This document shows, in pieces, positions 9,913-58,295 of a stretch of DNA of 64,000 nt. Under the pieces are notes generated by a model. The model was not told where the DNA came from. It ran no database searches and saw only the letters and a list, made by a program, of their open reading frames with translations. Positions within the stretch are counted from its first letter, which is position 1; each line of letters begins with the position of its first letter. The translations under genes were made by a program, and so were the position numbers. This stretch comes from Gammaproteobacteria bacterium (GTDB lineage Bacteria; Pseudomonadota; Gammaproteobacteria; Pseudomonadales; Halieaceae): positions 186,001-250,000 of the forward strand of contig JANSYN010000007.1 of assembly GCA_024742415.1 (NCBI GenBank), written 5' to 3'.

Positions 9913-9923
9913 TGGGTTTCTCC

Positions 9924-14713: not shown

Positions 14714-15871
14714 ATGGCGCGCATGGTTGACGGGGTAACAGTCGACGCTGCTGCGCTTGGCGTTGATCACACCCAGTTGCAGCGCCTTGTACAGCGCGTG
14801 CAGCGTGCGCTCGATACCTCGCCGCTGCCCTCGGTGCAGTTTGCGCTCGCCAAGGATAATGCGCTGGTCCTGTTCGAAACGCTTGGCAACCAGACGAACG
14901 ACACGCGCTACCTGGTGTATTCCTGCACCAAGCCTCTGGTTGCTGCGGCTTGCTGGAAACTCATGGGTGAGGGCTTGCTGGACATCCACGCCACTGTCAG
15001 TCGTTATCTTCCCGTCTTTGGGGGTGGTGGTAAGGAACGGGTTACCGTGGAGCAGTTGTTGTGCCATAGCAGTGGCTTTCCCAATGCCACGCTCGGGCCC
15101 CCACATTGGTGGGACTCAACATCACGTCTGGCACAGATGGCGCACTGGGAACTCGAATGGACGCCGGGCACGCAAGTGGTGTACCACCCCCTCTCAGCCT
15201 GGTGGGTACTGGCCGAAATCATCTCTGCGGTCAGTGGCGTGGATTATCGCCGCTATATCCAGCAGGCCATCCTGCAGCCCTGCGGATTGCGCAAACTGCG
15301 CCTGGGCGTGCCCCGGGATGAGGGTGACGACATCGCTGCGGTAGCCTATGTTGGTGAGCCTCCTGATGCACAGGAACTGCGCGCGCTGTTTGGCCGTGAA
15401 GTGCAGTGGCCGGCCGACCAGGATGCGTTTTACCTGTCCTTCAATGAACCCGACGTGCGGGCATTGGGTCTGCCCGGTGGGGGTGCTGTCTCCACTGCCG
15501 CCGATATGGCCCTGTTTTACCAGGCACTGCTGCACAATGCGGACGAGATCTGGGAGCGAGCAACACTGGCGCAGGTGATCGGCAAAGTCTATTGCGATGT
15601 GCCAGACCCGCACAGCGGTGCGCCTGCGCATCGCGGGCTGGGTGTGGTGGTCGCCGGTGATGATCGTTTCAAAATCAATCGGGGTATGGGAGAGAAAGTC
15701 TCGGCCCAGGCGTTCGGGCACCAGGGTGTGGGCGGGCAGGTCGCCTGGGGAGACCCACAATCCGGCCTGTCATTTTGCCTGCTGACCAACGGGCTCGATG
15801 CCAACCTGTTGCGCTCGACGCGCCTGTGCACAGCGGCCAGTAACCTTGCCGCAAGTTGCCTGCTGGCCTGA
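14714..15871 (+). CDS. Serine hydrolase of the beta-lactamase / class C esterase family
   Basis: A 385-residue protein with the class C beta-lactamase/EstB fold. The catalytic SxxK motif is SCTK in YLVYSCTKPLVAA, and VTVEQLLCHSSGFP is the conserved following segment. The Tyr motif is YHPLSAWWV, and the C-terminal HQGVGGQVAWGDPQSGLSFCLLTN replaces KTG. No signal peptide is evident, so it is likely a cytoplasmic esterase or lactonase. It starts 40 bp after the sulfatase gene and may be cotranscribed with it. An alternative ATG is at 14723. Substrate unknown. Confidence 0.88.
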   Translation: MARMVDGVTVDAAALGVDHTQLQRLVQRVQRALDTSPLPSVQFALAKDNALVLFETLGNQTNDTRYLVYSCTKPLVAAACWKLMGEGLLDIHATVSRYLPVFGGGGKERVTVEQLLCHSSGFPNATLGPPHWWDSTSRLAQMAHWELEWTPGTQVVYHPLSAWWVLAEIISAVSGVDYRRYIQQAILQPCGLRKLRLGVPRDEGDDIAAVAYVGEPPDAQELRALFGREVQWPADQDAFYLSFNEPDVRALGLPGGGAVSTAADMALFYQALLHNADEIWERATLAQVIGKVYCDVPDPHSGAPAHRGLGVVVAGDDRFKINRGMGEKVSAQAFGHQGVGGQVAWGDPQSGLSFCLLTNGLDANLLRSTRLCTAASNLAASCLLA

Positions 15872-15981: not shown

Positions 15982-17202
15982 TTACAGGCTTCCCACCACC
16001 CCGGCAGCCAGCAGGCGCTCGATGTCCTGCTCAGAATAGCCCGCATCGACGAGGATTTCCCTGCTGTGCTCACCCAGGCGCGGTGGGTGCCGGCGCAACG
16101 AGGCGGGTGTGTCCGACAGGTGACCGGGATAGCGGATGTAGCGCATGGTGCCAATGTCCGGATGCTCGGCGTCAAACACCGTACGGTTGTGCTTTACCTG
16201 GGGGTCGTCGGCGAATTCACGCACGGTATTGACGCGTCCGAAGGGCACGCCATGCGCATCCAGCCTGGCCAGTACATCGTCCGTTGAGAAGCGGCTGATG
16301 ACGGCTTCGATCGCGTCCAGCCACGGTTTGAAGTTGCCGACGCGCTCGCCCAGCGTTGCCATGCCCGGTGTTGCCAGCAGTTCCTCGCATTCCAGCGCCT
16401 TGCACAGGCCCTGGAAGTGATTGTCCTGCAATGCCATGCCAACGATGTAGCCGTCGGTGGTCGCAAAGGTGCGCAACACTGCCAGCGGCGCCGGGTCCGG
16501 GAGATCACTGGGAATAAAGCTGTCAACGGGCATCATGTCGGGCAGCGAGTTTGCCGCCCAGGCATCGATCATGGGGACGTCCACACGCTGCCCCTTGCCG
16601 GTGCCGCCGGGGCGATCGCGCGCGTACAGTGCGGCAACCGCCACGCCCGCCGCGGTGATTGCCGTGGTTTTATCAACAATCGCCGACTGTATCAGCATGG
16701 GCTTTTCCCCAAAAGGCATGCCCTGGATGAAGCAGCCGCCCACCAACCCCTGCGCGATGGGGTCGTAGGCGGGCCGATTGGAGTAAGGTCCGCTGGGGCC
16801 AAAGCCGGTGATGGACAGGTAAATCAAGCGATCATTCACGGCGCGCAGTTCCTCGTAGCCAAAGCCGACGCGATCCGGTACGCCACCGCGGAAATTTTCC
16901 ACGACGATGTCTGCGGTCTCGGCAAGTTTTTTCACGACAGCGATGCCTTCTGCGCTTTTCAGATCCAGCGCGATACTGCGCTTGTTGCGATTGAGCTGCG
17001 CATAGAAGCCGGTGAGCCCGTCTTTCTGCGGCGGGGCCAGCCAGCGTGCAATTTCACCGTGGGTGGGCTCTATCTTGATGACCTCGGCGCCCAGGTCGCC
17101 CAGTTGCTGGCCACACAGGGGCCCCGTGATCATTGAAGTAATATCCAGAACACGAATGCCCTTGAGGGGGCCCTCGGCGGGTTCATTGAGCTTAACGTCC
17201 AT
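15982..17202 (-). CDS. Family III CoA transferase (CaiB/BaiF type)
   Basis: A 406-residue protein with the complete family III layout: LKGIRVLDITSMITGPLCGQQLGDLGAEVIKIE at the start (the Rossmann-like CoA site), NRNKRSIALDLKSAEG, and VENFRGGVPDRVGFGYEEL. The catalytic aspartate region is seen as AYDPIAQGLVGG. These enzymes move CoA between carboxylic acids without free CoA release. AlphaMethylacyl-CoA racemases share the fold, but the motif order and length fit a transferase better. It is single on the minus strand, convergent with the serine hydrolase gene. Confidence 0.91.
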   Translation of the reverse strand: MDVKLNEPAEGPLKGIRVLDITSMITGPLCGQQLGDLGAEVIKIEPTHGEIARWLAPPQKDGLTGFYAQLNRNKRSIALDLKSAEGIAVVKKLAETADIVVENFRGGVPDRVGFGYEELRAVNDRLIYLSITGFGPSGPYSNRPAYDPIAQGLVGGCFIQGMPFGEKPMLIQSAIVDKTTAITAAGVAVAALYARDRPGGTGKGQRVDVPMIDAWAANSLPDMMPVDSFIPSDLPDPAPLAVLRTFATTDGYIVGMALQDNHFQGLCKALECEELLATPGMATLGERVGNFKPWLDAIEAVISRFSTDDVLARLDAHGVPFGRVNTVREFADDPQVKHNRTVFDAEHPDIGTMRYIRYPGHLSDTPASLRRHPPRLGEHSREILVDAGYSEQDIERLLAAGVVGSL

Positions 17203-45304: not shown

Positions 45305-46492
45305 ATGTTCGGCGACAACCCCAATGACCCGGCGCTGCAGCAGGCCTGGTCTGATTTTTGTGATGAACTCAAAAGCGCTTCGGCGCTGATTTTTCGCGAC
45401 ACAACGCCGGCGCATGATATCGACAGGGCCAAAGGGCTACGCCTGCTGGCGCGCAACGTGTCACTTGCCCTGCAGTTTCACCTTGAAAATACCGATCCCG
45501 ACTTTCCTGAGTTGCTCCACTATTTTGATCCATTGCGCAAGCAGGGCGGCGACAACACGGATGCGCTGTATGTGGGTGCGCCGATCAACGGTAGCAATAC
45601 CTATCGCATCAGCGGGCATCGCGGTGATGCGCGCTACTTTGCCGTCACCGTGCTCGAAGACGGCGCCACGCCCTGGGGTGGCGCTGTGGTCGGTAACCTG
45701 ATCGACAGCGATATCGCGGTGGCTGACGACGGCAAGTTTGAAATCTTTCTTGGCCCGCAACCGCACGCCGGTAACTGGATCAGGACGACCCCGGGAGCAT
45801 GGCGGGTTACCGTCAGGCAGTTCTTTGCCGATTGGGAAAACGAGGCGCCAATGAACGCGCGCATCGATTGCCTTGACGAGCACGAGCACAACCCGGTGCT
45901 GACGCCTGCGCAAGTCATTAGGGGTTTACAGGATTCCGCTGCCTGGGTGAAAAGCTCCACCACATACTGGGCAGACATGCTCGACAAGTGGCAGGTGCAG
46001 CCCAATCGCTTTCTCTCGTACCGGCAGCTGGATGACAATGCGATTGATGCAACACCTGGCGGCGAGCCGCTGATTTGCTACTGGCAGCTGCCCAGGGATG
46101 AAGTCCTGGTGGTGCGTGTGACGCCTCCAGTGGCGGACTACTGGTCAGTGGAGTTCGGTAATTACTGGTGGGAAACCATGGATTATCGCTATCGTCTGTG
46201 CAGCACCAATTGCCATCATGCGGTGCTGGAAGATGACGGTGAGCTGCTGCTGGTTGTGGCACACGATGATCCGGGCCTGCCCAACTGGCTGGACCCTTCG
46301 GGGCACGAGGCCGGCTACATCACGGTACGCTGGATTGGTGCGCAATCGTGCCCGACGCCGCACTGTGAGCAACTGCCTGCCGCGCGCCTGCACGACTACC
46401 TGCCGCACGCCTGCAAAACACTCGATGCAGAAGCGCGCAAGCAGCAGCTGGCGGGGCGACGGCGCGGTATATTGCGCCGCTTCGGCTACTGA
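45305..46492 (+). CDS. DUF1214-like protein, copy 1
   Basis: A 395-residue soluble protein without signal peptide. It shares with the protein encoded at 51081-52190 the motifs GGDNTDALYVGAPINGSNTY, LGPQPHAGNW followed by RQFF, VEFGNYWWETMDYRYR and HDDPGLPNWLDPSGHEAGY, typical of the DUF1214/DUF1254 type C-terminal fold. Function is unproved. The gene precedes an SDR and a sulfotransferase on the same strand. CGGAG before the ATG is a reasonable binding site. Confidence 0.75.
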   Translation: MFGDNPNDPALQQAWSDFCDELKSASALIFRDTTPAHDIDRAKGLRLLARNVSLALQFHLENTDPDFPELLHYFDPLRKQGGDNTDALYVGAPINGSNTYRISGHRGDARYFAVTVLEDGATPWGGAVVGNLIDSDIAVADDGKFEIFLGPQPHAGNWIRTTPGAWRVTVRQFFADWENEAPMNARIDCLDEHEHNPVLTPAQVIRGLQDSAAWVKSSTTYWADMLDKWQVQPNRFLSYRQLDDNAIDATPGGEPLICYWQLPRDEVLVVRVTPPVADYWSVEFGNYWWETMDYRYRLCSTNCHHAVLEDDGELLLVVAHDDPGLPNWLDPSGHEAGYITVRWIGAQSCPTPHCEQLPAARLHDYLPHACKTLDAEARKQQLAGRRRGILRRFGY

Positions 46493-46588
46493 ATCGGTGC
46501 AGCTTGCGGTAAGGCCAGCAGCCCCTCTCGCCGGGACAGTACATCAACCGACAGCAGCGCAACCCACCGGGTTGCACGGAGAGCGCTA

Positions 46589-47422
46589 ATGGATCTTGGA
46601 TTGCAGGGCAAGACGGTGGTGATCACCGGCGGCAGCGGCTACATTGGCCAGGGGCTGGTGCTGGCCTTTGCGCGCGAGGGCGCGAACGTGATCAGTGCCT
46701 CGCGCGACGTCTCTGTTGGTCACGCCCTGACGCAACAGGCGCAAGACGCCAGCCTCGCCGGCTCGGTGCTGGCCGTGGCCACGGATGTCACCGACAGGGC
46801 ATCGGTCGACGCCATGTTGGCGCGCTGCCATGAAGTGTTTGGCCCGGTTGATATACTGGTCAACAACGCCGGTGGCCCCGCACAGGCAGGCCCGTTCGAG
46901 ACGCTTGATCCGCAGGCGCGGCAATGGGAAATCGCTGTAAATGTCGATGGGGTCGTCAACTGCTGCCAGGCGGTTGCCGATGACATGCTCGGGCGTGGCG
47001 CCGGTTCTATTATCAATATATCGTCCAACTGCTCCCTCTCGGGCAAGACTGCAGAAAATCTCGTGCACTACGGTAGCGTCAAGGGCTTTGTGAACTCCCT
47101 GGGCAAATCCCTTGCCTGGGAGTGGGCAGGGAGGGGCGTGCGCGTCAATACGATATCGCCCGCCTGGATTGTGCCCGAGTCTGAACAGAACATTGGCCGG
47201 AACAGTTTCTGGCGACGGCTGGGCTTTTCCCTGATGGGTCGCCCGGAGCAGGCGCAGCAGGACTTTCTTGCAGGCACACTGGAACACATGGACGCGTTGC
47301 CAACGACGCGGCTGGGCCGGGCCGAGGATATTGCCAATATGGCCCTGTTCCTGGCCTCAGACAGGGCCGGTTTCGTTACCGGCCAGTTGATCAGTGTGTC
47401 CGGTGGCGCCTATATGCCCTGA
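46589..47422 (+). CDS. Short-chain dehydrogenase/reductase, second copy
   Basis: A 277-residue classical SDR. The cofactor loop TGGSGYIG is at residues 13-20, NNAGG at 92-96, and the catalytic Tyr161 and Lys165 lie in YGSVK with serines at 145/146. Arg39 following the second strand (SASRD) favours NADP(H). A roughly 25-residue insertion (NSFWRRLGFSLMGRPEQAQQDF) before the C-terminal substrate loop is longer than in FabG and may shape a bulky pocket. GGAGAG upstream. It lies between the DUF1214-like and sulfotransferase genes. Confidence 0.91.
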   Translation: MDLGLQGKTVVITGGSGYIGQGLVLAFAREGANVISASRDVSVGHALTQQAQDASLAGSVLAVATDVTDRASVDAMLARCHEVFGPVDILVNNAGGPAQAGPFETLDPQARQWEIAVNVDGVVNCCQAVADDMLGRGAGSIINISSNCSLSGKTAENLVHYGSVKGFVNSLGKSLAWEWAGRGVRVNTISPAWIVPESEQNIGRNSFWRRLGFSLMGRPEQAQQDFLAGTLEHMDALPTTRLGRAEDIANMALFLASDRAGFVTGQLISVSGGAYMP

Positions 47423-47567
47423 GCCTGACTGATGGTTTAAGGGCACTGTGCGCTGGCAGGACCACTGCGCCGCTGATCCTGATTCACCGCAGCGCCGGGG
47501 CTTGCAGCGCAGGAATCCAGCAACGCGGTGATCGCTTAACGAGAGTATGAACAGGAGTGACAACACA

Positions 47568-48800
47568 ATGTGGACAGCGCCCACGCCTCCCGAGTGGCTG
47601 GAAATCATTAATCGCGAGGGCAGCTATCTGGAACTGTCAGCGGTTGTGCCGCTGGACGAGCAGTCCCTGATCGCGCACGCGCGCCAGCGCACTGGCCTGG
47701 AAGATTTTGGTGATGATCTCTGGCGCGAGCCCTTTGCAGTGTATGTCAGGGCCCTGGAAGAAGAGGCACAGCTCACCCTGATGGGGCGCCTGATGGCACG
47801 CAACGATGTGATCCTGTGGCTGAGCACCCGACTTCAGGTGACTGCCACACTGGCGCGCCATCCGGAAATCCTGCAGCAGGACATTCCTGCGCCCATGTTC
47901 ATCGTGGGTCTGCCGCGTTCGGGCACCTCCATCCTGTTCGAACTGCTCGCACAGGATCCTGCGGCGGGCGTGCCGCTGATGTGGGAAGCCCTGCAGCCCT
48001 GTCCGCCACCGCAGCGCGAGACCTATGCCAGTGATCCGCGGATCGCGCAGGCGCACCAGTTGTTCACGCAGTGGAGCAGGGTGGCCCCGGAGTTTGCCCA
48101 GATGCATGAAATGCGCGGTGATCTTCCGGCAGAGTGTGGCCTGTTGATGGCGCCGACGTTTATCTCCGATCACAACGCCTCCCTGCACCAGACGCCCAGC
48201 TACAGCGCCTGGCTGGCACAGGCAGATTATCTGCCCGTCTACCAGTATCACAAAAGCCTGTTGCAGTTGTTACAGTGGAAAAACCCGCGGCAACGCTGGT
48301 TGCTCAAGGCGCCAGAGCACCAGGTGCACCTGGAGACGCTGTTGCAGGTGTATCCGGACGCGCGCATTGTGCAAACACACCGCGACCCCATCAAGTGTAT
48401 GGCGTCTGCCACGAGTTTGATGGGAACGCTCTACAGTATGCGATCCGACCAGGCGTTTAATGCGCAAATGTTTGAAAACATCATTATGGGGGAGGCCACG
48501 GCAGCGCGACTGAACCGGGTGATCGACCAGCGCGCGGCGGGTGACGTGCCCGCCGCAAACATCGCGGACTCCCGCTACCAGGACCTTATGGATGACCCCA
48601 TGCGTTGCATTGAGGCGATCTATGCGCATTTTGGTATGCCGCTGGAAGCCGCTGCGCGCACAGCGATGCTCGACTACCTGCAGCAGAAGCCACGCGGCAA
48701 GTTTGGTGTGCACCGCTATCAGGTTGATGAGCGCAGAACGACCGAGCGCCGCCTCTTCGAGCGCTATCAGTCAACCTACAACGTACCGGATGAAGTATAG
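47568..48800 (+). CDS. Sulfotransferase family protein (Sulfotransfer_3), copy 1
   Basis: A 410-residue protein. After an N-terminal helical extension of about 105 residues with TGLEDFGDD (42-50) and RLMARND, the PAPS 5-prime-phosphosulfate loop GLPRSGTS lies at 114-121 and the 3-prime-phosphate motif HRDP at 271-274, preceded by LLKAPEH. It probably transfers sulfate from PAPS to a hydroxyl of a small molecule or lipid in the cytoplasm. The start ATG 47568 has AGGAG about 10 bases upstream; ATG 47547 would add seven residues without a good site. Two more genes of the same subfamily lie within 6 kb. Confidence 0.86.
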   Translation: MWTAPTPPEWLEIINREGSYLELSAVVPLDEQSLIAHARQRTGLEDFGDDLWREPFAVYVRALEEEAQLTLMGRLMARNDVILWLSTRLQVTATLARHPEILQQDIPAPMFIVGLPRSGTSILFELLAQDPAAGVPLMWEALQPCPPPQRETYASDPRIAQAHQLFTQWSRVAPEFAQMHEMRGDLPAECGLLMAPTFISDHNASLHQTPSYSAWLAQADYLPVYQYHKSLLQLLQWKNPRQRWLLKAPEHQVHLETLLQVYPDARIVQTHRDPIKCMASATSLMGTLYSMRSDQAFNAQMFENIIMGEATAARLNRVIDQRAAGDVPAANIADSRYQDLMDDPMRCIEAIYAHFGMPLEAAARTAMLDYLQQKPRGKFGVHRYQVDERRTTERRLFERYQSTYNVPDEV

Positions 48801-48950
48801 GCGCTGGCTCGTTGGCGCGTGCAGTTGCCAGGACTCTTGCGCAAAGCGTGCCGTTGCCGGGTGTGCTGCGCGTTGGTGTTGGTGCAAGGTGCCAGCGGCG
48901 GGGAATAAACGCCAGCCTTGCGTTTTCAGTCTCACCGGGCGCGTGGCGCG

Positions 48951-49820
48951 CTAGAAGCGCTGGATAATGTTGCTTGCGTAGTGCTCCATAAAGCGCTTTT
49001 TCTCGTCCAGCGTTGAGCGCTTCTTGCCAAGGCCATACAGAAAAGGCGGTGCCACTGTGCTCTCAAGGCCGTCCTGCTGCAGCCTTGCATACAGGTCATA
49101 ACTGGGCATATCGCTGATGCCCAGCATCGCTTCAAAGGGCAGGTGGTCACGTTGGTACTCTTTGCGTAGCGCAGTGAGCTGCTGTAACAGGGTCTTCACG
49201 TCATCCGGCGCGGTGCCGGCGCCGATGTAGCCGTTGCCGCAGCGCGCGGCGCGGGCAAGGGCTGCCTGTGATGAGCCGCCGATATAAATCGGCGGTGGTT
49301 GCGCGGGAGCGGGGCTAAGTTGCACGCGCGGAAAGTCGAAAAACTCACCGTGATGCTCAACCATCTCGCCCTGCCAGAGTTTATGTAGCACCTCGATACT
49401 TTCGTCAGTAATTTTGCCGCGCTTGTGAAAGTCCACCCCGTAGATAGCGAACTCTTCTTTCATCCAGCCCACGCCGACCCCCAGCACAAACCGCTGATTG
49501 CTGAGTATCGCCAGCGTTGCCGTGGCCCGTGCCACCTCGTGCGGGTTGCGCAAGGGCAAGACATACACGCCGCAGGTAAAGCGCAGGGTTGAGGTCGCCG
49601 CTGCCATGGCAGCGAATATCGCCGTTTGATCCGGGTACTCATCGCTGGCTTCCATGGGCGGCAGGCCGGTATCGGAGTAGGGGTAGTGGGGTGCAATCGA
49701 CTCCGGATACACCGCGTGATCACCGCTCATCAGGCCATGAAAGCCCACTTCTTCGGCAAACCGGGCTATCTCGATAAGCTGGTCTGTCTCGGCCCAGGTA
49801 ATGGCTTGCCAGAATTGCAT
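48951..49820 (-). CDS. LLM-class F420-dependent oxidoreductase (TIGR03619-like)
   Basis: A 289-residue TIM-barrel protein of the luciferase-like monooxygenase family. The sequences LIEIARFAEEVGFHGLMSGDH, LRFTCGVYVLPLRNPHEVARATATL and LGVGVGWMKEEFAIYGVDFHKRG are typical of the F420-dependent class rather than the FMN bacterial luciferases. It would use reduced F420 to reduce or oxidise a carbonyl or enone. No F420 biosynthesis gene is in the window. ATG start; it lies 25 bp upstream of nothing in the same unit, followed by 150 noncoding bases. Confidence 0.87.
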   Translation of the reverse strand: MQFWQAITWAETDQLIEIARFAEEVGFHGLMSGDHAVYPESIAPHYPYSDTGLPPMEASDEYPDQTAIFAAMAAATSTLRFTCGVYVLPLRNPHEVARATATLAILSNQRFVLGVGVGWMKEEFAIYGVDFHKRGKITDESIEVLHKLWQGEMVEHHGEFFDFPRVQLSPAPAQPPPIYIGGSSQAALARAARCGNGYIGAGTAPDDVKTLLQQLTALRKEYQRDHLPFEAMLGISDMPSYDLYARLQQDGLESTVAPPFLYGLGKKRSTLDEKKRFMEHYASNIIQRF

Positions 49821-49845
49821 GATGACTCCTTAACGTAGTGTGCTG

Positions 49846-51081
49846 CTAGAAGGTTTCCCGGGGAATGTTGAAGTGCGCCTCGTAGTTGGAGAACAGTTCG
49901 CGCAGGTGCTCAAGGTCGAGCTGCGTTGCTGCGAGCTCGTACAGGTGCTTGCCGTGTTTGTCTGCCGGGTTGTCATCCAGGAAGCGCTGCATCGACGTCG
50001 CCGCTGCGTCTGATAGCGCCAGGCCAAAGTGGTCGTAGGCCCGGCGCACGGTGCCGACCTGGTCCTGCATAAAATCACGAAAGTACAAATCGACGACTTG
50101 CGCATCCGGCAGTTTACCGGACTGCCGATACGCCACGGTCTTGTCGTATCCCCCGGCAAGGGCCGTCGCATAGTGGGCGGCTACCGTGGGCAGGTGGGCA
50201 TGGTCGGACGACAGCGCCTGCAGCGTAACGGCAAGATTGCTCATGGATATCAGTGTTTTTACAGGATCCCTGTGGGTTTGCACAAACAGTGCGTCGGGAT
50301 ACTCGCGGTGCACGAACTCAAGGTGCCACAAGTGCTGTGGCGATTTCAGTGCCCAGCGCTGCCCCGGGCACTTCCACTGCAGTATCTGCAAAAAGCGCCG
50401 GTGCCATTTGAAGGCCGAACGCATATCATTTTGCATAACCCAGTTGTCGTAGCTGGGCACGCTGAATTGCACATAGAAGATCATCGAGGTGAAATCGTGC
50501 GAGGTCAGCGACACACATTCCTGTGCGCGTTGCGCGCCCATGGGATGCATGCGCTTGAACTCGGGGATCAGCGTGTCGACTCTATCCAGGTCGGCCTGCA
50601 CTTTGGCAATACGTGGATCGGTGTTATAGCTGGCAGACTCCGGTGGCGGTAGCGGGTAGCAGGCCTCCCAGGACAGGGGCACCCGGTTGTCGGTATCCAT
50701 GGCCAGCAGGTCGTGAAAAATAGTCGTGCCGGAGCGCGGCGGCCCCACCACGAACAGCGGCTTCTCGATGGGCTGTTCTTCGATCTCGGGATGGCGCTTG
50801 AGCAGTTCGACCATGCCCAGGCGGTTAGTGAGTGTGCGCAGCAAGTCGCCGCGCGCGATGATGCGGCCCAGCAGCGTCAACCGTGCTTCGGTTTCCAGGC
50901 TGTCCAGCAACATGCGCAGCGGCAGCTCAAAATCGCTGTCGCCAAAATCCTGCAGGCCGCTGTCTTTCCTGGCCTGTTTGAGCAGGCTGTCGAAATCCAG
51001 TTTTACCGGTTGCAGCCCCAGAGTCCGGGCCGCATGTCCAGCGCCGTTCAGCGCCCTTACCGTCAGGGGAAGGCTGGCCAT
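49846..51081 (-). CDS. Sulfotransferase family protein (Sulfotransfer_3), copy 2
   Basis: A 411-residue protein with the same layout as the copy at 47568: helical N-terminus with SGLQDFGDSDF (41-51) and RIIARGD, P-loop GPPRSGTT at 113-120, WALKSPQH at about 243-250 and HRDP at 270-273. GKHLYELAATQLDLEHL near the end is the shared C-terminal tail. The start codon overlaps the DUF1214 stop by one base (TGATG), so translation is coupled. The LLM gene follows 25 bp downstream on the same strand and may belong to the same transcript. Confidence 0.86.
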   Translation of the reverse strand: MASLPLTVRALNGAGHAARTLGLQPVKLDFDSLLKQARKDSGLQDFGDSDFELPLRMLLDSLETEARLTLLGRIIARGDLLRTLTNRLGMVELLKRHPEIEEQPIEKPLFVVGPPRSGTTIFHDLLAMDTDNRVPLSWEACYPLPPPESASYNTDPRIAKVQADLDRVDTLIPEFKRMHPMGAQRAQECVSLTSHDFTSMIFYVQFSVPSYDNWVMQNDMRSAFKWHRRFLQILQWKCPGQRWALKSPQHLWHLEFVHREYPDALFVQTHRDPVKTLISMSNLAVTLQALSSDHAHLPTVAAHYATALAGGYDKTVAYRQSGKLPDAQVVDLYFRDFMQDQVGTVRRAYDHFGLALSDAAATSMQRFLDDNPADKHGKHLYELAATQLDLEHLRELFSNYEAHFNIPRETF

Positions 51082-52190
51082 CAGGCTTGCAGGTCTGCGA
51101 GTTTTACGACCTTGGCGACGGGTGTTTCCACGTCTCCCTTGACCATGAAGAAGCGCCAGAACACCAGTCCAAACAGATTGCCCTCGGTGTCCACCCAGTT
51201 GGGTACACCCGGGTCTTCATGGGCCAGCACGATGGTGAAGCTGCCGTCTGCATCGGTTTGCGTCTGCTTGCGATTGATCGAGACGGGCCGGTCGGCATAG
51301 TTCAGTGTTTGCTGGAACCGGTTCCACAGGCACAGGTTGGCGAAACAGCAGTCCGGCCAGCGACCGTTGATCACCAGGGCTTCATCGGGGTTGATAAAAA
51401 AGGGTGCCATTGAGTAGTGCGCGTCGTAGGCGGCAAAGCCGAAGTCGCCGGGTTTGATCGGCGCCGGGAACGCGTTGGGTGTGAGCGCAACAAAGGGCGG
51501 TGGCTCGGTGTTCGCCATCGGCGGCATTTCCAGTGTTCGGCTGCGCACAACATTGGTGACCCGGCGAATGCCCGCGGCGACCGAGTTGTCCGTTGGTGCC
51601 GGTGTGGGGCTGCTGTTGGTCAGGCACTCAATGCGCATGATCGGTACCAGCGCCGGATCAAGTGCGGCGGCGCGCTCGTTTTCGAAGTAGTGCCGGGTGG
51701 TCAGGCGCGACGTCTCTGGAGTGAGCGCAAGCCAGTTCTGCGCGCGCGGCTCGCCGCCCAGGTAGAGTGTAAAGTTGCCGTTGCTGTCTATCTCCATCTC
51801 TTCATTGTTGATCAGGCCGGCCGTACGCGTCGCCATGTGGCCCTCGGCTGTGCCCTCTTCAATAGTGAGTGAGAAGTAGGAGGCCCCTTGCAGGTTGCCG
51901 CTGAGCATATAGCTGTGATCGGCGCTTAATGGTGCATCGAAATAGATGGCGTCTGGATTGTCACCGGTCAGTTTACGACTCTGTGTTGTAATGCGGCGCA
52001 GGTCCGGGTTGGCGGGATCCTGTTCGAAAAAACCCACCAGGCTCGCCTCGAGAATGTGCATCAGTGCCCGGTGTGATCCCACGATATCCTCTTCAGAGTG
52101 CAGGTTCCACTCGGCGGATGACCAGCGCTCGTCAATTTCTTTCAGGGTGTCGATCAGTTCGTGCAGTGCACGGCGGCTTTGCGTTTGCAT
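51081..52190 (-). CDS. DUF1214-like protein, copy 2
   Basis: A 369-residue soluble protein. It carries GDNPDAIYFDAPLSADHSYML, LGGEPRAQNWLAL followed by RHYFENERA, DCCFANLCLWNRFQQTL and HEDPGVPNWVDTEGNLFGL, lining up with the copy at 45305. The gene has stop and start overlaps with a sulfotransferase on one side (TGATG) and stands 25 bp after a second sulfotransferase on the other. Function is unknown, but the fixed pairing with sulfotransferases argues for a shared reaction path. Confidence 0.77.
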   Translation of the reverse strand: MQTQSRRALHELIDTLKEIDERWSSAEWNLHSEEDIVGSHRALMHILEASLVGFFEQDPANPDLRRITTQSRKLTGDNPDAIYFDAPLSADHSYMLSGNLQGASYFSLTIEEGTAEGHMATRTAGLINNEEMEIDSNGNFTLYLGGEPRAQNWLALTPETSRLTTRHYFENERAAALDPALVPIMRIECLTNSSPTPAPTDNSVAAGIRRVTNVVRSRTLEMPPMANTEPPPFVALTPNAFPAPIKPGDFGFAAYDAHYSMAPFFINPDEALVINGRWPDCCFANLCLWNRFQQTLNYADRPVSINRKQTQTDADGSFTIVLAHEDPGVPNWVDTEGNLFGLVFWRFFMVKGDVETPVAKVVKLADLQA

Positions 52191-52215
52191 GGATGGTCTT
52201 CTCTGTAGGGTTGTT

Positions 52216-53556
52216 TCAGTTGGGAGTATCGTGTGTGGCAGCGCTGGCGGCGTGCGGGTTCTGTGTCTCGTAGGGGATGTTGAAACGCTCGCGATAAAAC
52301 ATCAGCTCGTCATCCACTTGTTCCTTTGTTAACCCGAAATCTGCCAGATGATATTTGTGCGCGCCGTGCTTGTGCTGACTGTTACTGTCCAGCCACTGTC
52401 GCATACCGGTGCGCGCCTGATCCGAAAAAGGCATCTGCAGGAAATCGTAGACGCCCCCGAGTGCCGCCTGCCAATTGGCGGTAATGTCGGCATACAGCAC
52501 GTCATACTGCTGTTCGGGGGTTGAAAGCTCGGCCCGGTCGTGCAGGTTCTTGTGCAGCATGCGCCGGGTCTTCTGTAGCCAGTTCTGGCCTACCGCGTGA
52601 GGGTCAATGGTGTCCACGTCGCGCACCAGGGAGTTCCACGCCATGGAGCAGCAGGAGCCGACCACTTTGATCGGGTCGCGATGCGGGCATATCAGTCTGG
52701 CGTTGGGGAACACGTGCAGCATGGCATCGAGATCCTGCATGTGCTGTGGCGATTTGAGAATCCACGGCTTGTCCTGCGGGTCGCCGCGAAACCACGACAC
52801 CGTCTTGAGCAGTTTGACCATGTACTCGTAGGCGAATTTCTGGTCGTGCGTCATCAGCCACTCTGCGAATTGCGGCAGATCGTTGATTACCTCAAACAGT
52901 TGTGTGGAAAAGGCATACTGCAGCAGCCCGATTTCTTCCTCGACCTCGTGCGTACCCAGCGGGTGGACCGCGCCGATCTGCGGGCTCATGTACAGCACGG
53001 CCTTGAGCGCCTGGTCCAGTTGCGTGATGCGTGGGTCGGTCTTGCCGGCGGCGCGCGCGGCAAAGCTGTCTGCCCTGGGTACAGGGTAGACACTCTCCCA
53101 GGATTGCAGGTGCAGGAACCGGTCGTCCGATGCCAGCAGGCGGTGCAGGCGGGTGGTTCCCGAGCGCGCCAGCCCGACAATCACAATCGGGTCAGGCAGG
53201 CTGCGCTCGAGTATTTCCGGATGACGCTGCCACAGCGCCTCGGCCTCCAGGCGCCCCTGTAGCAGCCGTTCGATGTTTGACCTGGCCAGAAAGCGGCCCA
53301 GCGGGTTCAGCGCGGTGCGATTGGTGTCTTCAACCAGTAGTTGCAGCTGCGTCATGAAGCGATCGTCACCAAAATCACGCAGGCCGGTGTCTTTGCAGGC
53401 TTTTTTCAGCAGCTTTTGTGTGTCCAGCGTGAAGCGCGCCAGGCCAAATGATTGTGCAGAGCGCAGCGCACCATTGAGCAGTTTGATGGGCAGTCGCTGG
53501 TAACTGCTCGCATTGAGCTTCTTTGCCGTTGTTTCTGCGTTGTCACTACTGGCCAT
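52216..53556 (-). CDS. Sulfotransferase family protein (Sulfotransfer_3), copy 3
   Basis: A 446-residue protein, the longest of the three. TGLRDFGDDRF (57-67) and RFLARSN mark the N-terminal extension; the P-loop is GLARSGTT at 128-135 (Ala in place of Pro), WILKSPQH at 265-272 and HRDP at 292-295. HKHGAHKYHLADFGLTKEQV is the conserved tail. It is first in the minus-strand unit and divergent from a TetR regulator, with 87 bp between that hold two inverted repeats. Substrate unknown; the family modifies sterols, phenols and glycolipids. Confidence 0.86.
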   Translation of the reverse strand: MASSDNAETTAKKLNASSYQRLPIKLLNGALRSAQSFGLARFTLDTQKLLKKACKDTGLRDFGDDRFMTQLQLLVEDTNRTALNPLGRFLARSNIERLLQGRLEAEALWQRHPEILERSLPDPIVIVGLARSGTTRLHRLLASDDRFLHLQSWESVYPVPRADSFAARAAGKTDPRITQLDQALKAVLYMSPQIGAVHPLGTHEVEEEIGLLQYAFSTQLFEVINDLPQFAEWLMTHDQKFAYEYMVKLLKTVSWFRGDPQDKPWILKSPQHMQDLDAMLHVFPNARLICPHRDPIKVVGSCCSMAWNSLVRDVDTIDPHAVGQNWLQKTRRMLHKNLHDRAELSTPEQQYDVLYADITANWQAALGGVYDFLQMPFSDQARTGMRQWLDSNSQHKHGAHKYHLADFGLTKEQVDDELMFYRERFNIPYETQNPHAASAATHDTPN

Positions 53557-53588
53557 ACGCTGTTATGTCTCTACTTTACGCGATCGGT

Positions 53589-53618
53589 CATTTTGCAGAA
53601 AATGTCGCATTCCGCGAC
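53589..53618. promoter_or_regulatory. Two adjacent inverted repeats, candidate TetR operators
   Basis: CATTTT/AAAATG with a 4-base spacer (53589-53604) is directly followed by GTCGC/GCGAC with a 5-base spacer (53604-53618). They sit between the divergent sulfotransferase and TetR genes, the standard place for an autoregulated operator. Confidence 0.5.
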
Positions 53619-53643
53619 CGCTTTCTCAAGGACTATTTGGCGC

Positions 53644-54228
53644 ATGCCCGATGTTCAGTCCCCACAGTTCAAATTGATTATCGCCGCTGCCAAGCAGTGT
53701 TATCTCAGCGACGGTATATCCGGCACCGGTATGGCAGAGGTGGCGGCCACAGCCGGTGTGGCGCGTTCAACACTGTATCGCTATTTTGCAGGGCGCGATG
53801 AGTTGCTGATTGCAACGGTGCAGGACGAAATGCTCCAGCTTAATACTTTTCTGCGGCGCAAGCTCGATCGCCTGCCCGATCCAGCAGATCAGCTGGTAGA
53901 GGGCCTGCTCCTGGCTATTCGTGAGATTCCGCGGCGCAAATTGCTCAATGCCGTGTTTGCCTCTGAGCAGGATGTGCGTGCGCGTCATGTGGTGTGGGGC
54001 TCCGACACCATCGTGCGTTTTGGCGAGGAGCTCATGTCACATGTGATCGGGCCCGCCACCAGTGCCCGCCTGCTGCAGGACGAGGTGCCGGCAGAGGTGA
54101 TGATCGAGTGGGTTTATCGCCTGTTACTGTCTTTTCTGACGCTGCCGAGCAACACCTTGAAAAATGAACAGGCGCTGCGCGCTACGCTGCGCGCGTTGCT
54201 GGTGCCGGTGCTGCTGAAGCCGCACTGA
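53644..54228 (+). CDS. TetR-family transcriptional regulator
   Basis: A 194-residue protein. The N-terminal helix-turn-helix is IIAAAKQCYLSDGISGTGMAEVAATAGVARSTLYRYFAGRDELL, with the typical STLYRYF recognition helix. The C-terminal ligand domain is family-divergent. It is divergent from the sulfotransferase/DUF1214/LLM unit and probably represses it until a lipophilic ligand binds. ATG 53644 follows AAGGA by 11 bases; an earlier ATG at 53602 would start within the operator region. Its last 47 bases overlap the convergent oxidoreductase gene. Confidence 0.9.
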   Translation: MPDVQSPQFKLIIAAAKQCYLSDGISGTGMAEVAATAGVARSTLYRYFAGRDELLIATVQDEMLQLNTFLRRKLDRLPDPADQLVEGLLLAIREIPRRKLLNAVFASEQDVRARHVVWGSDTIVRFGEELMSHVIGPATSARLLQDEVPAEVMIEWVYRLLLSFLTLPSNTLKNEQALRATLRALLVPVLLKPH

Positions 54229-55930
54229 GGTCGTCATGGTCTGCATCGCTGTTGCCGCTGTGTGCTGCCGCTGCCAGGATTTCATGGGCGCAGTTGTAGC
54301 CCGGCAGGAAGGTAACGCCCGGCCCCGGGTGGCAGGAGGCGCCGCACAGGTACAGCCCCGGCAGGGGCGTGGTATGACCGGTGCCTTCCACCAGGCAGCG
54401 TTCACCGATCATCTGGTCGGGGTGCAGGAGCCCGTGGGTCCAGTCGCCATTGGTAACGCCCTGCATGCTGGCAAAGTGATCCGACGAGAAAATGGCCTGG
54501 TCGACAATGAGATCGGGAAAGTCCGGCATATGCAGCGCAATATGGTCGATGAGTTTTTCGGCCATCAGGTCGCGCAGTTTGCCGCGTTCAGATTTCGGTG
54601 CCTCACAGGGAAAGTAGAAGCCGTAAGCGCTGGCGATGTGGTACCCCTGTGGTGCAAGCGAAGGGTCAACAACGGTGGGTATCTGGAAGGCCAGTGGCAC
54701 CTGGTCGGGCATTTCGCCGCGCAGGCAGCGCTCGTAACTGCGCTGCAGTTCTTCGGGTTCCAGCACCATGGCGCCGCCAAAACGCGCGCCCGGAATGTGA
54801 TTCAGTTTGTCCAGGTGTCTGGAGTAGCGGGGTAGCCCCCTGAGTTTGAACAGCATGTGCACAAACGCGCCCTGGTGGGTGAAGGCATCGACGCGGGCCT
54901 GGTCATCCACGCCCAGGGGGAAGTCGGCCAGCAATCGATTGAAGGTGGCCTGCTTGTCGAGGTTGGAGACAATCGTAGGGGCGTAGATACGCTGCCCGCG
55001 CTTGGTCTCAACGCCCACGGCGCGACCGTTTTCCACCAGTATGCGCGTGACGGGTTGTTTCAGCCGGACCTCGCCACCCAGTGCCTCTATCTGTTGGGCA
55101 AGGCACTCCGACAAACTGCCCAGCCCACCCTTGACGCGCTGCATGAGCCCCTCAGAACCTTCCTGCGCCATGGTGTAGATCAGGCACAAACCGGAACCGG
55201 GTGTGTAAGGCCCCTTGTAGGTTGCCTGTACCGCAGCAAACGCCATGCTGGCACGCAGCTCCCTGTGTTTGATGGGGTCGGGGAAGAAACGGTCGATGAT
55301 ATCCATCGCTGAGCCCTTAAAGGCCAGTTCAAGATGCTCGCGCTGGGCCGGGGTGCCCGCTTCAGCGATGAGTTCTTCGAGCTTGCGTGGCGCCTTGCGT
55401 GCAGTGAAACGGTCGAGCACGCGAGCCGGGTATTGGCAAAACTTGAGAAACCGCGCGAAGCCAAGCATTGCGCCGGGCCCAAACTGGCGCAGCATATTCA
55501 GCGACAGCTTGACTGGGTTCTTGAAAAAAATCAGCGGGCGCCCCTGCGCCCCCACAAGGTTAACGGCCATCACCGGCAATGGCAGCAATTCAACACCGTG
55601 CGCCTCGAAATCGAAGTAGGCCTTGATCTCGGCTGACAGCGGAAACAGGCAACTGGCCCCGACTTCATTGCGGCAATCCTTGAAGATAGCGCGGGTGCCC
55701 CCCATACCGCCGACGAAATCGTTCTTTTCCAGAAGCAGTACGCGCTGGCCATTGCGCGCCATCACCAGGCCGGTAGCCAGGCCATTGTGACCCGCACCGA
55801 TGATGATGCAGTCGAAGTCGTGGCGTTCCGTGCTGCCTTCTCGGCCCTGGCTGGCATTGGTTGAAATGCCACCTGAAGTGCTGACGGTGTTGCCGTGTTC
55901 TTGCGCCTGTACGCTGTCGGGGCTTGTCAT
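54182..55930 (-). CDS. FAD-dependent oxidoreductase, CrtI/PYROXD2-like
   Basis: A 582-residue protein of the phytoene desaturase-like amine oxidoreductase group. After about 36 unusual N-terminal residues (Ser, Gln, Glu rich), the dinucleotide fold begins: DCIIIGAGHNGLATGLVMARNGQRVLLLEKNDFVGGMGGT. The C-terminal FAD segment is LPGLYLCGASCHPGPGVTFLPGYNCA. The closest known type is PYROXD2 and bacterial homologues, whose substrates are unsettled. GAGAGAGG before the ATG is a strong site. The 3-prime end overlaps the convergent TetR gene by 47 bases. Confidence 0.89.
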   Translation of the reverse strand: MTSPDSVQAQEHGNTVSTSGGISTNASQGREGSTERHDFDCIIIGAGHNGLATGLVMARNGQRVLLLEKNDFVGGMGGTRAIFKDCRNEVGASCLFPLSAEIKAYFDFEAHGVELLPLPVMAVNLVGAQGRPLIFFKNPVKLSLNMLRQFGPGAMLGFARFLKFCQYPARVLDRFTARKAPRKLEELIAEAGTPAQREHLELAFKGSAMDIIDRFFPDPIKHRELRASMAFAAVQATYKGPYTPGSGLCLIYTMAQEGSEGLMQRVKGGLGSLSECLAQQIEALGGEVRLKQPVTRILVENGRAVGVETKRGQRIYAPTIVSNLDKQATFNRLLADFPLGVDDQARVDAFTHQGAFVHMLFKLRGLPRYSRHLDKLNHIPGARFGGAMVLEPEELQRSYERCLRGEMPDQVPLAFQIPTVVDPSLAPQGYHIASAYGFYFPCEAPKSERGKLRDLMAEKLIDHIALHMPDFPDLIVDQAIFSSDHFASMQGVTNGDWTHGLLHPDQMIGERCLVEGTGHTTPLPGLYLCGASCHPGPGVTFLPGYNCAHEILAAAAHSGNSDADHDDLSAASAAPAPATRAA

Positions 55931-56112: not shown

Positions 56113-57336
56113 ATGTCCAGGGCAGTGACGGCGGTACAACTGGCCGCATTGGCGGCGCGCGGTGGTGCGCGCGTGCTGCGCGATATACTGGGCGATGTGC
56201 CCGGCTGGAGTATGCCGTATCGCGCGCAGCTCGTTGCGCAACCGCAGCAGCTGTCACGCATGATCAACGCTGCTGCGCTGCCCGCGTGCCAGGGGCCTGT
56301 CAACATTCGTACCGTGACAGTGCAGGATGTGCCCTCGGTCAGCAGCAACTGCCACAACCTGGTGTTATCGCTGGAGCAAGTCGGCGCGCCCATGTTGCCG
56401 CACAGCGTGTTTGTCAAACTGCCGATGGAGTCCCTGGCAACCCACTGGTTTTTTTCCGTCATTAACTCATGGCGGCTGGAATCCCACTTTTTTCGCCATG
56501 TCGCCCCCCATGTACCGCTGCAAACGCCGGTGACCTACGCCACCGCCTGGCAGGGGAGCCGGTTTTTCCTGGTTCAGGAAAACCTCAACGCCAATGACCA
56601 GGTGACGCTGTTTACCAACCCCGACATGCTGCAGGGCCCCTCGCAGAACCAGGTAGCGCTATGCCTGGATGCCTTTGCGCGACTGCACGCAAAACATGTG
56701 CACCTGTCTCCGGCAGAGCGCGAAGCCATATTGCCACTGGAGTATCACCTGTTTCTCTCACCCTCAATGGGGCTCGCCTCACGTAGCCTGAACGCCCTGG
56801 CGCTCTCACCCTGTATGAAGAAGCGCCCCGGCCGCATTCCTGCGGAGGTTGCGGCCGCGTATGAGCAGTCTATCGAGCACTGGGATGTCCTGCTCGAGCA
56901 CTGGTTCAGCGGGCCGCTGTCGCTGCTGCATGGCGACAGCCACCTGGGAAACTTCTATCAGATCGGCGATGAGATGGGCATGCTGGACTGGCAGGCCGCG
57001 CATTGGGGCAAGGGTATTCGCGATGTGCAGTACTTTTTGATCGATGCGATGCCGGCCAGTGAGTTGGCGGCACAGGAACGTGACTGGGTAGACTACTACG
57101 TGCAGCGGCGGGCGGTACACGGCGCGCCGCTGGAGCGCGAGGCGGCCTGGCAGGACTACCGCTCCCTGACATTCCACACCCTGTTTACCATCGTGGTCTC
57201 TATCGGCTTCGGCGCGCTCAATGAGGAGCAGGACGCACTGATGACAGAGCTTCTCGAACGCGCCGTCGCGGCCACGCAACGGGTGGATTATGCCGGCTGG
57301 TTGCGCGATTATCTGGCAAGTCACCCCAACATCTAG
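56113..57336 (+). CDS. APH/EcKinase-like phosphotransferase
   Basis: A 407-residue protein of the aminoglycoside phosphotransferase/choline kinase superfamily. Lys102 (VFVKLP) lies in the nucleotide site; the catalytic loop is HGDSHLGNF (His273, Asp275, Asn280) and the metal Asp292 is in GMLDWQ. WRLESHFFRHVAPHVPLQTPVTY resembles the ecdysteroid-kinase-like branch. It should phosphorylate a hydroxyl of a small molecule. It is followed 20 bp later by a zinc alcohol dehydrogenase, clearly in one unit. Confidence 0.87.
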   Translation: MSRAVTAVQLAALAARGGARVLRDILGDVPGWSMPYRAQLVAQPQQLSRMINAAALPACQGPVNIRTVTVQDVPSVSSNCHNLVLSLEQVGAPMLPHSVFVKLPMESLATHWFFSVINSWRLESHFFRHVAPHVPLQTPVTYATAWQGSRFFLVQENLNANDQVTLFTNPDMLQGPSQNQVALCLDAFARLHAKHVHLSPAEREAILPLEYHLFLSPSMGLASRSLNALALSPCMKKRPGRIPAEVAAAYEQSIEHWDVLLEHWFSGPLSLLHGDSHLGNFYQIGDEMGMLDWQAAHWGKGIRDVQYFLIDAMPASELAAQERDWVDYYVQRRAVHGAPLEREAAWQDYRSLTFHTLFTIVVSIGFGALNEEQDALMTELLERAVAATQRVDYAGWLRDYLASHPNI

Positions 57337-57356: not shown

Positions 57357-58295
57357 ATGAAAGCCGTTCGTTGTTGCGACAAACACGTGCACGTTGTTGA
57401 GGTGCCCCCGCCCGCGGGTGAGGGCGTTGTCGTTAATGTGCGCTCCGCGGGCATCTGTGGCTCGGATCTGCATATGCTGGACCTGGGCTTTCCAATACCC
57501 GGGACGCTCGGCCACGAGGTCGCCGGTGTGCTCAAGGATGGCCGCGAGGTGGCCGTAGAGCCGGTAGCGCCCTGCGGCCATTGCGACATGTGCGTTCAGG
57601 GCGACTACTTTTCCTGCCGCAAAGGTCCGGCAGTACTCTTTGGCGTCGGGCTGGACGGCGGTATGGCGCAGCAGATTCTGGTGCCGCCACGGGCCATTGT
57701 GCCGCTACCCAATAATGTGCGCGCCGCAGATGCCTGCCTGGTGGAGCCGCTGGCGGTTGCGGTGCACGGCATCAGTATGCTCAAGCTTACGCCCCAATCG
57801 CGCGTGGCCATCATTGGCGCTGGCGCTGTCGGTCTGGCGGCTACCGCCGTGTTGAGCACGCACCTCAAGACGGTGCATGTGGCTGCGCGCCATGATGCGC
57901 AAAAAGAAGCGGTAGAAAAGCTCGGTGCCGGGCTCGCGCCCGAAGGGGAATACGACGCGGTCATTGAGTGCGCAGGTAATTCTGCGGCAATGGCGCAGGC
58001 GGCGCGGTTATGTAAACCCGGTGGCACCATCATCCTGTTGGCGACCTACTGGGAAGCCGTGACCATGCCGGCCGCCGATATTTCGCTGAAGAGCCTGACG
58101 GTCAAAGGGTCGTTCCTGTACGGCAGCCACGGCCTGGTGCGCGATGTGGAAGTAGCGGCCCAACTGATGGCCGCGCGCCCGGAGTTGAAAGACATTCTGA
58201 TTACGCATCGTATACCACTGGAGGCTGCCCCTGAGGCCTTTGCCATCGCGCGCGATCGCCAGGCCGGTGCGATCAAGGTCGTGCTGGAACCGTGA
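57357..58295 (+). CDS. Zinc-dependent alcohol dehydrogenase (MDR superfamily)
   Basis: A 312-residue medium-chain dehydrogenase, shorter than the usual 340-350. Catalytic zinc ligands are in GICGSDLHM and GHEVAG; the structural zinc set CGHCDMC with a fourth Cys seven residues on (DYFSC) is complete. The Rossmann loop is IGAGAVGLAA. AARHD after the second strand suggests NADP(H). It oxidises or reduces an alcohol; the loss of length is in the cofactor domain. AGGAAA precedes the ATG. Confidence 0.92.
   Translation: MKAVRCCDKHVHVVEVPPPAGEGVVVNVRSAGICGSDLHMLDLGFPIPGTLGHEVAGVLKDGREVAVEPVAPCGHCDMCVQGDYFSCRKGPAVLFGVGLDGGMAQQILVPPRAIVPLPNNVRAADACLVEPLAVAVHGISMLKLTPQSRVAIIGAGAVGLAATAVLSTHLKTVHVAARHDAQKEAVEKLGAGLAPEGEYDAVIECAGNSAAMAQAARLCKPGGTIILLATYWEAVTMPAADISLKSLTVKGSFLYGSHGLVRDVEVAAQLMAARPELKDILITHRIPLEAAPEAFAIARDRQAGAIKVVLEP

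Follow-up and report, generated by a model that had tools for sequence, protein, structure and literature searches.

A recurring pair of a long DUF1214 protein and a sulfotransferase in a Halieaceae genome and across bacteria, indirectly tied to steroid catabolism

What brings three sulfotransferases (STs) and two DUF1214 proteins together within 9 kb of a bacterial genome, and is the grouping more than chance? The genes in question lie at positions 45305-54228 of a 64,000-nucleotide stretch, called here the window, from a Halieaceae gammaproteobacterium (GCA_024742415.1, contig JANSYN010000007.1, positions 186,001 to 250,000 of the forward strand). A first-pass annotation, made from the letters alone, had described an eight-gene cluster there as a candidate undescribed pathway for a sterol-like or phenolic compound. 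All eight genes were recovered in place with significant Pfam matches (cut-offs of 25 bits for DUF1214 and 27 bits for Sulfotransfer_3). The pair of a long DUF1214 protein and an ST recurs from marine bacteria to mycobacteria, near steroid genes in several lineages, which points to a sulfation step. The eight genes are as follows.

45305..46492, plus strand: DUFa, a long duplicated DUF1214-type protein of 395 amino acids, 6ANS type (PF06742, 45.9 bits)
46589..47422, plus strand: short-chain dehydrogenase/reductase (SDR) between DUFa and STa (Pfam adh_short/adh_short_C2)
47547..48800, plus strand: STa, Sulfotransfer_3 enzyme (PF13469, 124 bits), residues of the site for 3'-phosphoadenosine 5'-phosphosulfate (PAPS) kept
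48951..49820, minus strand: LLM-class (F420/FMN) oxidoreductase that ends the STc operon (PF00296, Bac_luciferase, 176 bits)
49846..51081, minus strand: STb, Sulfotransfer_3 enzyme whose start lies on the DUFb stop codon (PF13469, 137.5 bits)
51081..52190, minus strand: DUFb, the second long DUF1214-type protein, 369 amino acids (PF06742, 46.3 bits)
52216..53556, minus strand: STc, Sulfotransfer_3 enzyme at the head of STc-DUFb-STb-LLM (PF13469, 127.8 bits)
53602..54228, plus strand: TetR-type regulator, divergent from STc, frame open from TTG 53452 (PF00440, TetR_N, 47.6 bits)

The layout agrees with its first description. The STc stop lies 25 bp upstream of the DUFb start, a one-base overlap within TGATG joins DUFb to STb, and 25 bp separate the STb stop from the LLM start, so that STc-DUFb-STb-LLM looks like a single compact operon of four genes. 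The other DUF1214 gene does precede an SDR and an ST, as DUFa-SDR-STa on the plus strand, with intergenic gaps of 96 and 124 bp calculated from the coordinates. The three STs, described earlier as one subfamily, belong to one Pfam family but are only 30-40% identical to each other (STa-STb 39.5%, STb-STc 33.5%, STa-STc 30.2%), and DUFa is 29% identical to DUFb. The LLM oxidoreductase exceeds the cut-off of the F420-type model TIGR03619 (210.9 vs 166.9 bits); the host genome has one CofD-family match, in a family that also matches in E. coli.

The pair recurs across bacteria

We asked whether the conserved role that had been supposed for DUF1214 proteins beside STs extends to other genomes. A conserved place was indeed found for the long 6ANS-type subfamily, far beyond Halieaceae. 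In a cross-phylum set (one genome per species, scanned with nine aligned family members; of 581 confirmed loci the best 80 were kept, and these lean to the branch of the host copy L034), an ST lies directly beside the long DUF1214 gene and on the same strand in 63 of 80 loci, DUF1214 being first in 60 and the gap between the matched parts ranging from -49 to 157 bp. Among the remaining 17, one has a divergent ST, three have an ST 2.5-7 kb off, four have none within at least 3 kb on each side (flanks of about 10 kb in L066, L097 and L130; 4.8 and 3.6 kb in L112), and nine have none with a contig end close by. The 1.33 Mb covered by these 80 loci hold four other STs. The loci come from Gammaproteobacteria, Cupriavidus, Collimonas, Gemmatimonadota, Acidobacteria, Chloroflexi, actinobacteria, Myxococcota and Bacteroidetes, among others. 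Two culturable Halieaceae, Pseudohalioglobus lutimaris and Seongchinamella sediminis, each have a related pair.

In Mycobacteriales, the long family was found in 36 of 120 genomes (E 1e-10). All 20 loci sampled among the matches listed (seven each from two genomes, two from a third and one each from four) have an ST within 1 kb of DUF1214, 18 of them on the same strand, and four (L159, L165, L170, L171) have the order DUF1214-SDR-ST. The control consisted of 20 classical DUF1214 loci from a search of 184 host-class genomes, several from one genome and four in stretches of at most 14 kb; an ST was present in a single one, the sole locus whose DUF1214 matches the long family. Within the host's own family, the recurrence holds only in part: among 20 sampled long-family loci, an ST is adjoining or one gene away in 9, a weak 41-bit piece is present in 1, an ST is about 9 kb off in 1 and none is found in 9. 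With DUFb alone as the query, only 2 genomes out of 275 in the host's class matched at E 1e-40, one of them its own. In addition, an SDR stands beside the DUF1214-ST pair in at least 35 of 110 pairs, as found with a single-sequence model; neighbour genes in this GC-rich DNA were called with a caller based on GC content at third codon positions.

The two partners also diverge together. For 89 of 92 pairs with a gap below 1.2 kb, a few of which share one ST (L076, L077), the matrix of DUF1214 distances correlates with that of the STs (r = 0.73, against at most 0.18 in 2000 permutations); for DUF1214 distances above 0.35, r is 0.51. Shared species history contributes to the value of 0.73. Paralogous pairs that agree (L041 with L161; L159, L165, L170 and L171 together) argue for a partner-specific history. 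Chance clustering of common families might be proposed from the abundance of Sulfotransfer_3 in the host genome, with 23 matched stretches; we give it next to no credence, as STs at 1 of 20 control loci vs 63 of 80 and the co-divergence contradict it.

Six matches to the DUFa and DUFb model were found in the host genome. One copy, L034, has DUF1214 followed by an ST, and its type of DUF1214 protein is 72-84% identical to homologues in Halieaceae, Haliea, Halioglobus and similar. The paralogue L041 has the order P450-ST-SDR-DUF1214-SDR, and the copy at L035:7864-9054 has no ST within its stretch.

Two candidate fusions of DUF1214 and ST were rejected. The 841-amino-acid frame of L117 has the C-terminal end of DUF1214 out of register and looks like a frameshift joining two genes, and the 845-amino-acid frame of L081, a Gordonia locus that we take to belong to the Mycobacteriales, simply runs open over a long distance upstream of DUF1214. 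At L157:7547-8718, the ST beside DUF1214 is split in two, which may reflect a pseudogene or a sequencing error.

Conservation in close relatives

We compared the locus with 11 related regions chosen for their DUF1214 matches, ten from the same genus and one (L053) from another. DUFb and STc are present and adjoining in all 11; LLM is also present in all 11, and STb in nine (all except L043 and L053), with 2.6-3.8 kb separating STb from LLM in L044 and L051. DUFa-STa lies on the far side of LLM in eight of the regions. In L051 and L052 it is missing from that place while STc-DUFb-STb and LLM stay, thus revealing two separable modules. The SDR between DUFa and STa was found in one related region, L043, and the order DUFa-SDR-STa appears again in L178, L180 and L181 from other genera; the window SDR is 65-68% identical to the SDRs standing in this order in the four loci. 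The arrangement is more than chance: it is mostly kept in the ten same-genus regions and partly in the one from another genus, and the pair is also found in other phyla.

An indirect link to steroid catabolism

The sterol-like substrate proposed in the first-pass annotation receives indirect support from co-occurrence and proximity with KshA and from the KstR boxes that the mycobacterial form carries, but no KstR box lies near the window genes. For the phenolic alternative no evidence was found, and no test aimed at it was made. Among 140 host-family genomes, the long DUF1214 family (with or without an ST) and KshA_C are both present in 90 and both absent in 40, each occurring alone in 5. In the largest genus (57 genomes), both are present in 23 and neither in 29, DUF1214 alone in 1 and KshA alone in 4. 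The host genome itself has five KshA_C matches. In the part of the window frames that was scanned, no KshA, KstD or seco-steroid gene was recognised beside the window genes.

A long DUF1214 gene shares its stretch with a KshA-type gene in eight loci, which come from the host's family, Pseudomonas and Mycobacteriales: the Pseudomonas loci L092 and L093, the Mycobacteriales loci L159 and L165, the overlapping L195 and L224 from one genome, and L228 and L229; KshA_C was confirmed by Pfam in L092, L165, L195, L224, L228 and L229. In the relatives L228 and L229, about 7 and 11 kb separate KshA from DUFa-STa. L228 carries a KstD-like gene, whose 578 bits fall short of the equivalog cut-off of 789, together with KshA and a flavin monooxygenase, followed by DUFa (76%) and STa (75%).

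The mycobacterial version is the closest known counterpart in gene order. The Rv3531c-Rv3530c-Rv3529c operon of the KstR cholesterol regulon has the order DUF1214-SDR-ST, as DUFa-SDR-STa in the window; Rv3531c is read as DUF1214-like from its gene-order match with L165 and L159. We take Rv3529c to be STF1 (structure 2ZQ5) and Rv3526 to be kshA. In L165, DUF1214-SDR-ST lies beside KshA (PF19298, 298 bits), and the ST aligns end to end with 2ZQ5 (621 bits). A KstR box with 0-1 mismatch was found at the DUF1214 start in all four Mycobacteriales loci of DUF1214-SDR-ST order. In the passages available from the published work, KstR binding is marked at a motif upstream of Rv3531c (PMC1995591) and Rv3531c is listed as a predicted requirement for growth on cholesterol (PMC6429209). 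The window differs from this operon in its SDR, which is only 28% identical to that of L165, and in having no KstR box.

Sulfotransferases and the supply of PAPS

In enzymes of this kind, the GxxRxGT loop serves the 5'-phosphosulfate, and Arg and Ser residues the 3'-phosphate. The loop and the K, H, E, HR and S columns are kept in STa, STb and STc. The STb model (predicted local distance difference test, pLDDT, of 95) has as its nearest structures 2ZQ5 (STF1, M. tuberculosis H37Rv; template modelling, TM, scores 0.80/0.89) and 2Z6V (STF9, M. avium), and its sequence matches 2ZQ5 with E 2.1e-51. The window STs are thus probably active PAPS-dependent enzymes.

We also looked for PAPS synthesis near the pair. 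A set of 79 neighbour proteins from hand-picked diverse loci, from 136 references (first 25 of 62 families shown), contained six adenosine 5'-phosphosulfate (APS) kinases by Pfam, with L069 represented among these, four with two CysN-type domains, one ATP sulfurylase, one PAPS-reductase-type domain and 19 SDRs. A frame with an APS-kinase-like loop motif occurs in 20 of the 80 cross-phylum loci and in 1 of the 20 Mycobacteriales loci. The loci concerned are partly close relatives (Pseudomonas, Cupriavidus), so that there are fewer independent events. To judge from the motif, its presence near the pair points to PAPS supply. One motif hit, in L071, was dropped as an APS kinase: its 1057-amino-acid frame was read as UvrA. 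In the host, the single APS kinase match falls on a different contig. L069:5505-16737 shows the order DUF1214-ST-APS kinase-ATP sulfurylase-SDR, together with a gene of the metallo-beta-lactamase alkyl-sulfatase type and two further ST matches, possibly placing sulfation and desulfation side by side.

The long DUF1214 subfamily and its exported paralogues

DUFa and DUFb are not of the classical DUF1254-DUF1214 kind. The classical proteins (VPA0735, 2P3Y/3VB9) have the DUF1214 domain in common with the window proteins; 19 of 20 control loci have no ST, and the long-family model misses 19 of 20 classical loci. Proteins of the VPA0735 type presumably carry the DUF1254 part. The best solved relative of DUFa is 6ANS from Burkholderia cenocepacia, an uncharacterised protein (E 3.4e-59, against 0.07 for VPA0735), of the same fold and sequence family, for which there is a structure only, under a title without function. 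The AlphaFold2 model of DUFa (pLDDT 89.3) superposes on 6ANS with TM 0.84-0.86, followed by VPA0735 and VPA0106, both also titled without function. The N and C halves of DUFa are related by hhalign (E 1.2e-6, probability 90.8), which indicates two DUF1214 repeats in about 370-395 amino acids. Across 51 rows, the invariant residues are R46, K79, D86, Y89, Y100, R171, N302, P323, G324, N327, G337 and R342 in DUFa numbering.

Some members stand without an ST and carry a twin-arginine (Tat)-like N-terminus: six of the nine ST-less long DUF1214 proteins in the host-family sample (L187-L192) and also L035, while no ST-linked member of that sample does, as judged by eye. The crude twin-arginine pattern also flagged L183, L184 and L197, all without a subsequent hydrophobic stretch. 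L035 and L187-L192 are thus apparently exported, and these Tat-like, ST-less paralogues suggest that a DUF1214 protein may work without a cytosolic ST. At L053:8317-10850, a DUF1214 gene of the Tat-like kind adjoins the DUFb-STc pair and converges on a DUFb-type gene of the opposite strand; this arrangement suggests periplasmic and cytosolic DUF1214 forms for one compound.

What the module may do

We propose that a widespread cytosolic module for sulfation occurs twice in the window. It pairs a Sulfotransfer_3 enzyme with a DUF1214 protein of the long duplicated type, and an SDR often accompanies them. With PAPS as donor, the ST would sulfate a hydroxyl on a polycyclic, steroid-like alcohol, and the SDR would set the oxidation state at a ring position. 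The DUF1214 protein would bind this molecule too and most likely process it chemically, either ahead of sulfation or following it, and would be more than an ST subunit; it may be a carrier, a hydrolase, an isomerase or a lyase expelling sulfate. The local TetR would sense a related ligand, and in the host genome the modules would serve steroid-type catabolism or handling. Our confidence in this proposal and our doubt about it are about equal.

Several observations weigh against it. The KshA comparison counts the whole long DUF1214 family, including copies without an ST, and its statistics ignore phylogeny. Of the two control genes, used to check for effects of genome size or catabolic breadth, PaaA shows a weak link within the largest genus (odds ratio 4.0, p 0.035) and PufL a negative one overall (0.15); the values for PaaA overall (1.4) and for PufL in the largest genus (0.96) count in favour of the proposal. 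Given the PaaA link inside one genus, the DUF1214-KshA link may partly reflect shared gene loss. The eight KshA-bearing loci are only 8 of 158 (of at least 8 kb, including controls and loci without the gene; L224, L228 and L229 were chosen for KshA on the same contig). A KstR box at the DUF1214 start is absent in 8 of 12 scanned Mycobacteriales loci, and no KstR-like box was found near DUFa or STc, a two-mismatch site at 51313 falling inside DUFb. The low count of adjoining STs in the host's own family (9 of 20) belongs here as well, and other polycyclic alcohols are possible substrates. Moreover, the Creative Commons-licensed literature in PubMed Central gave no biochemical datum on any DUF1214 protein, and its available passages give no substrate for these STs.

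Conjugation is a rather doubtful alternative, in which the ST would solubilise toxic or dead-end steroid or terpenoid alcohols for export or storage and DUF1214 would be a lipid-binding carrier or chaperone of the product. A bacterial precedent exists in Bt_0416 of Bacteroides thetaiotaomicron, similar by description, which sulfates cholesterol, and thus a steroid, with PAPS and for which the available passages mention no DUF1214 partner (PMC12667688). The DUF1214 model matches well only function-less structures (6ANS, VPA0735, VPA0106), Tat-like paralogues exist and L069 has an alkyl-sulfatase-type gene near the module, all in keeping with disposal. Against it, no transporter family recurs in the part of the neighbour families that was shown (25 of 62), NhaB being found once; the many near-invariant polar DUF1214 columns suggest more than a carrier, and Rv3531c is listed, in the passages available, as a predicted requirement for cholesterol growth (PMC6429209). 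The proposed module could also, in an unlikely variant argued by analogy, be a sulfo-activation unit in which the ST sulfates a steroid ring or side-chain hydroxyl and DUF1214 is a new class of enzyme expelling the sulfate by elimination, rearrangement or inversion. Retinol dehydratase, CurM and OLS are sulfotransferase-fold enzymes that employ sulfate as a leaving group; their ST domains are weak structural matches of STb (TM about 0.3-0.5).

A role of DUF1214 as a subunit or activator that the ST cannot do without, with no activity of its own, would fit the tight adjacency, the TGATG coupling and the co-divergence; it is decidedly unlikely considering the Tat-like, ST-less paralogues in the same family, the four of 80 loci that have no ST despite flanks of at least 3 kb and the three more with an ST only at 2.5-7 kb. 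Finally, the modules might make a sulfated lipid or signal molecule, the steroid link coming merely by descent of the host lineages. The linkage to PAPS synthesis and the P450-ST-SDR-DUF1214-SDR order of the host paralogue L041 are compatible with such a biosynthetic role, which we consider very improbable, as the KshA co-occurrence holds within one genus, KstR boxes stand on the mycobacterial operon, and the CoA-transferase, CoA-ligase and KstD-like neighbours look catabolic.

Significance and literature

The cluster was called a candidate undescribed pathway at first; the pair is undescribed within the same Creative Commons-licensed PubMed Central literature (subscription journals being outside its scope), where no paper has DUF1214 together with a sulfotransferase and DUF1214 occurs in a single paper, on eukaryotic genome quality to judge by its title. 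Among 27 matches there, the 20 steroid-pathway papers listed do not contain the word sulfotransferase. An orphan domain family is joined to an ST across several phyla, with both indirectly tied to steroid catabolism, and a KstR-controlled mycobacterial operon listed as relevant for cholesterol growth has no reaction assigned in the literature passages available. As the pair names a co-expression partner, a cofactor and a substrate class, the operon and the role of DUF1214 become directly testable. If the proposal is true, sulfation would be part of bacterial steroid breakdown; if the sulfo-activation variant is true, aerobic steroid catabolism would include a PAPS-driven step unmentioned in the steroid-pathway papers among those matches. 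Overall, of the earlier ideas, the adjacency is upheld strongly for one DUF1214 subfamily and the sterol idea moderately, and the single-pathway and TetR ideas weakly.

Regulation by the neighbouring TetR

The idea of the eight genes as one pathway under the neighbouring TetR is upheld weakly at most: the sole candidate operator lies at STc/TetR, and DUFa-STa is separable, as seen in L051 and L052.

53598..53612, strand not assigned: candidate operator GAAAATGTCGCATTC between STc and TetR, whose core AATGTCNCATT recurs in four of the 11 related regions

The core was found in L046, L047, L048 and L050. Elsewhere in the window, a site resembling GAAAATGTCGCATTC with up to three mismatches occurs only at 3412. 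A shared operator for both modules was not found, no site like it lying at DUFa within three mismatches, so that control of the DUFa module by this TetR is not supported; control of the STc module by it is, from the position of the site, a guess. An inverted-repeat search at the candidate operator found none. The site overlaps a possible TetR start codon and may instead code for the first TetR residues. The TTG at 53452 falls within STc, and the start is likelier at ATG 53602 or 53644, as judged by eye. In L046, L047 and L048 (compare window 53602-53650), a frame starting in AATGTCNCATT ends after about 17 codons with a TGA overlapping the TetR start, also judged by eye; a leader peptide at this site is possible.

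Genes around the cluster

Four further genes of the window were compared with the related regions or are conserved neighbours.

54182..55930, minus strand: FAD oxidoreductase, CrtO/CrtI-like, convergent with TetR (PF01593, 59 bits)
56113..57336, plus strand: EcKL/APH-type small-molecule kinase (PF02958, 34 bits; PF01636, 34 bits)
57357..58295, plus strand: zinc alcohol dehydrogenase, conserved neighbour (PF08240, PF16912)
15982..17202, minus strand: CoA-transferase III (PF02515, 356 bits)

TetR-FAD-EcKL is found in 7 of the 11 related regions; L043 and L053 are without it, and L049 and L050 end at contig ends. CoA-transferase III directly adjoins DUFa in L045-L048 and is about 28 kb away in the window. 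A beta-lactamase-type gene (14714-15871 in the window) adjoins DUFa together with the CoA-transferase in L046-L048. Since these genes stand beside DUFa there and about 28 kb off here, the stretch separating them from DUFa in the window looks inserted or rearranged. Between CoA-transferase III and DUFa (15982-45086), the window contains an RPE65-type carotenoid oxygenase, a PhyH-type gene, a PQQ dehydrogenase and an open frame of 2700 amino acids. Two adjacent acyl-CoA dehydrogenase genes lie at 8689-11024, the second of which best matches IpdE2 (171 bits, below the cut-off of 450), an enzyme that we take to act in steroid C/D-ring catabolism.

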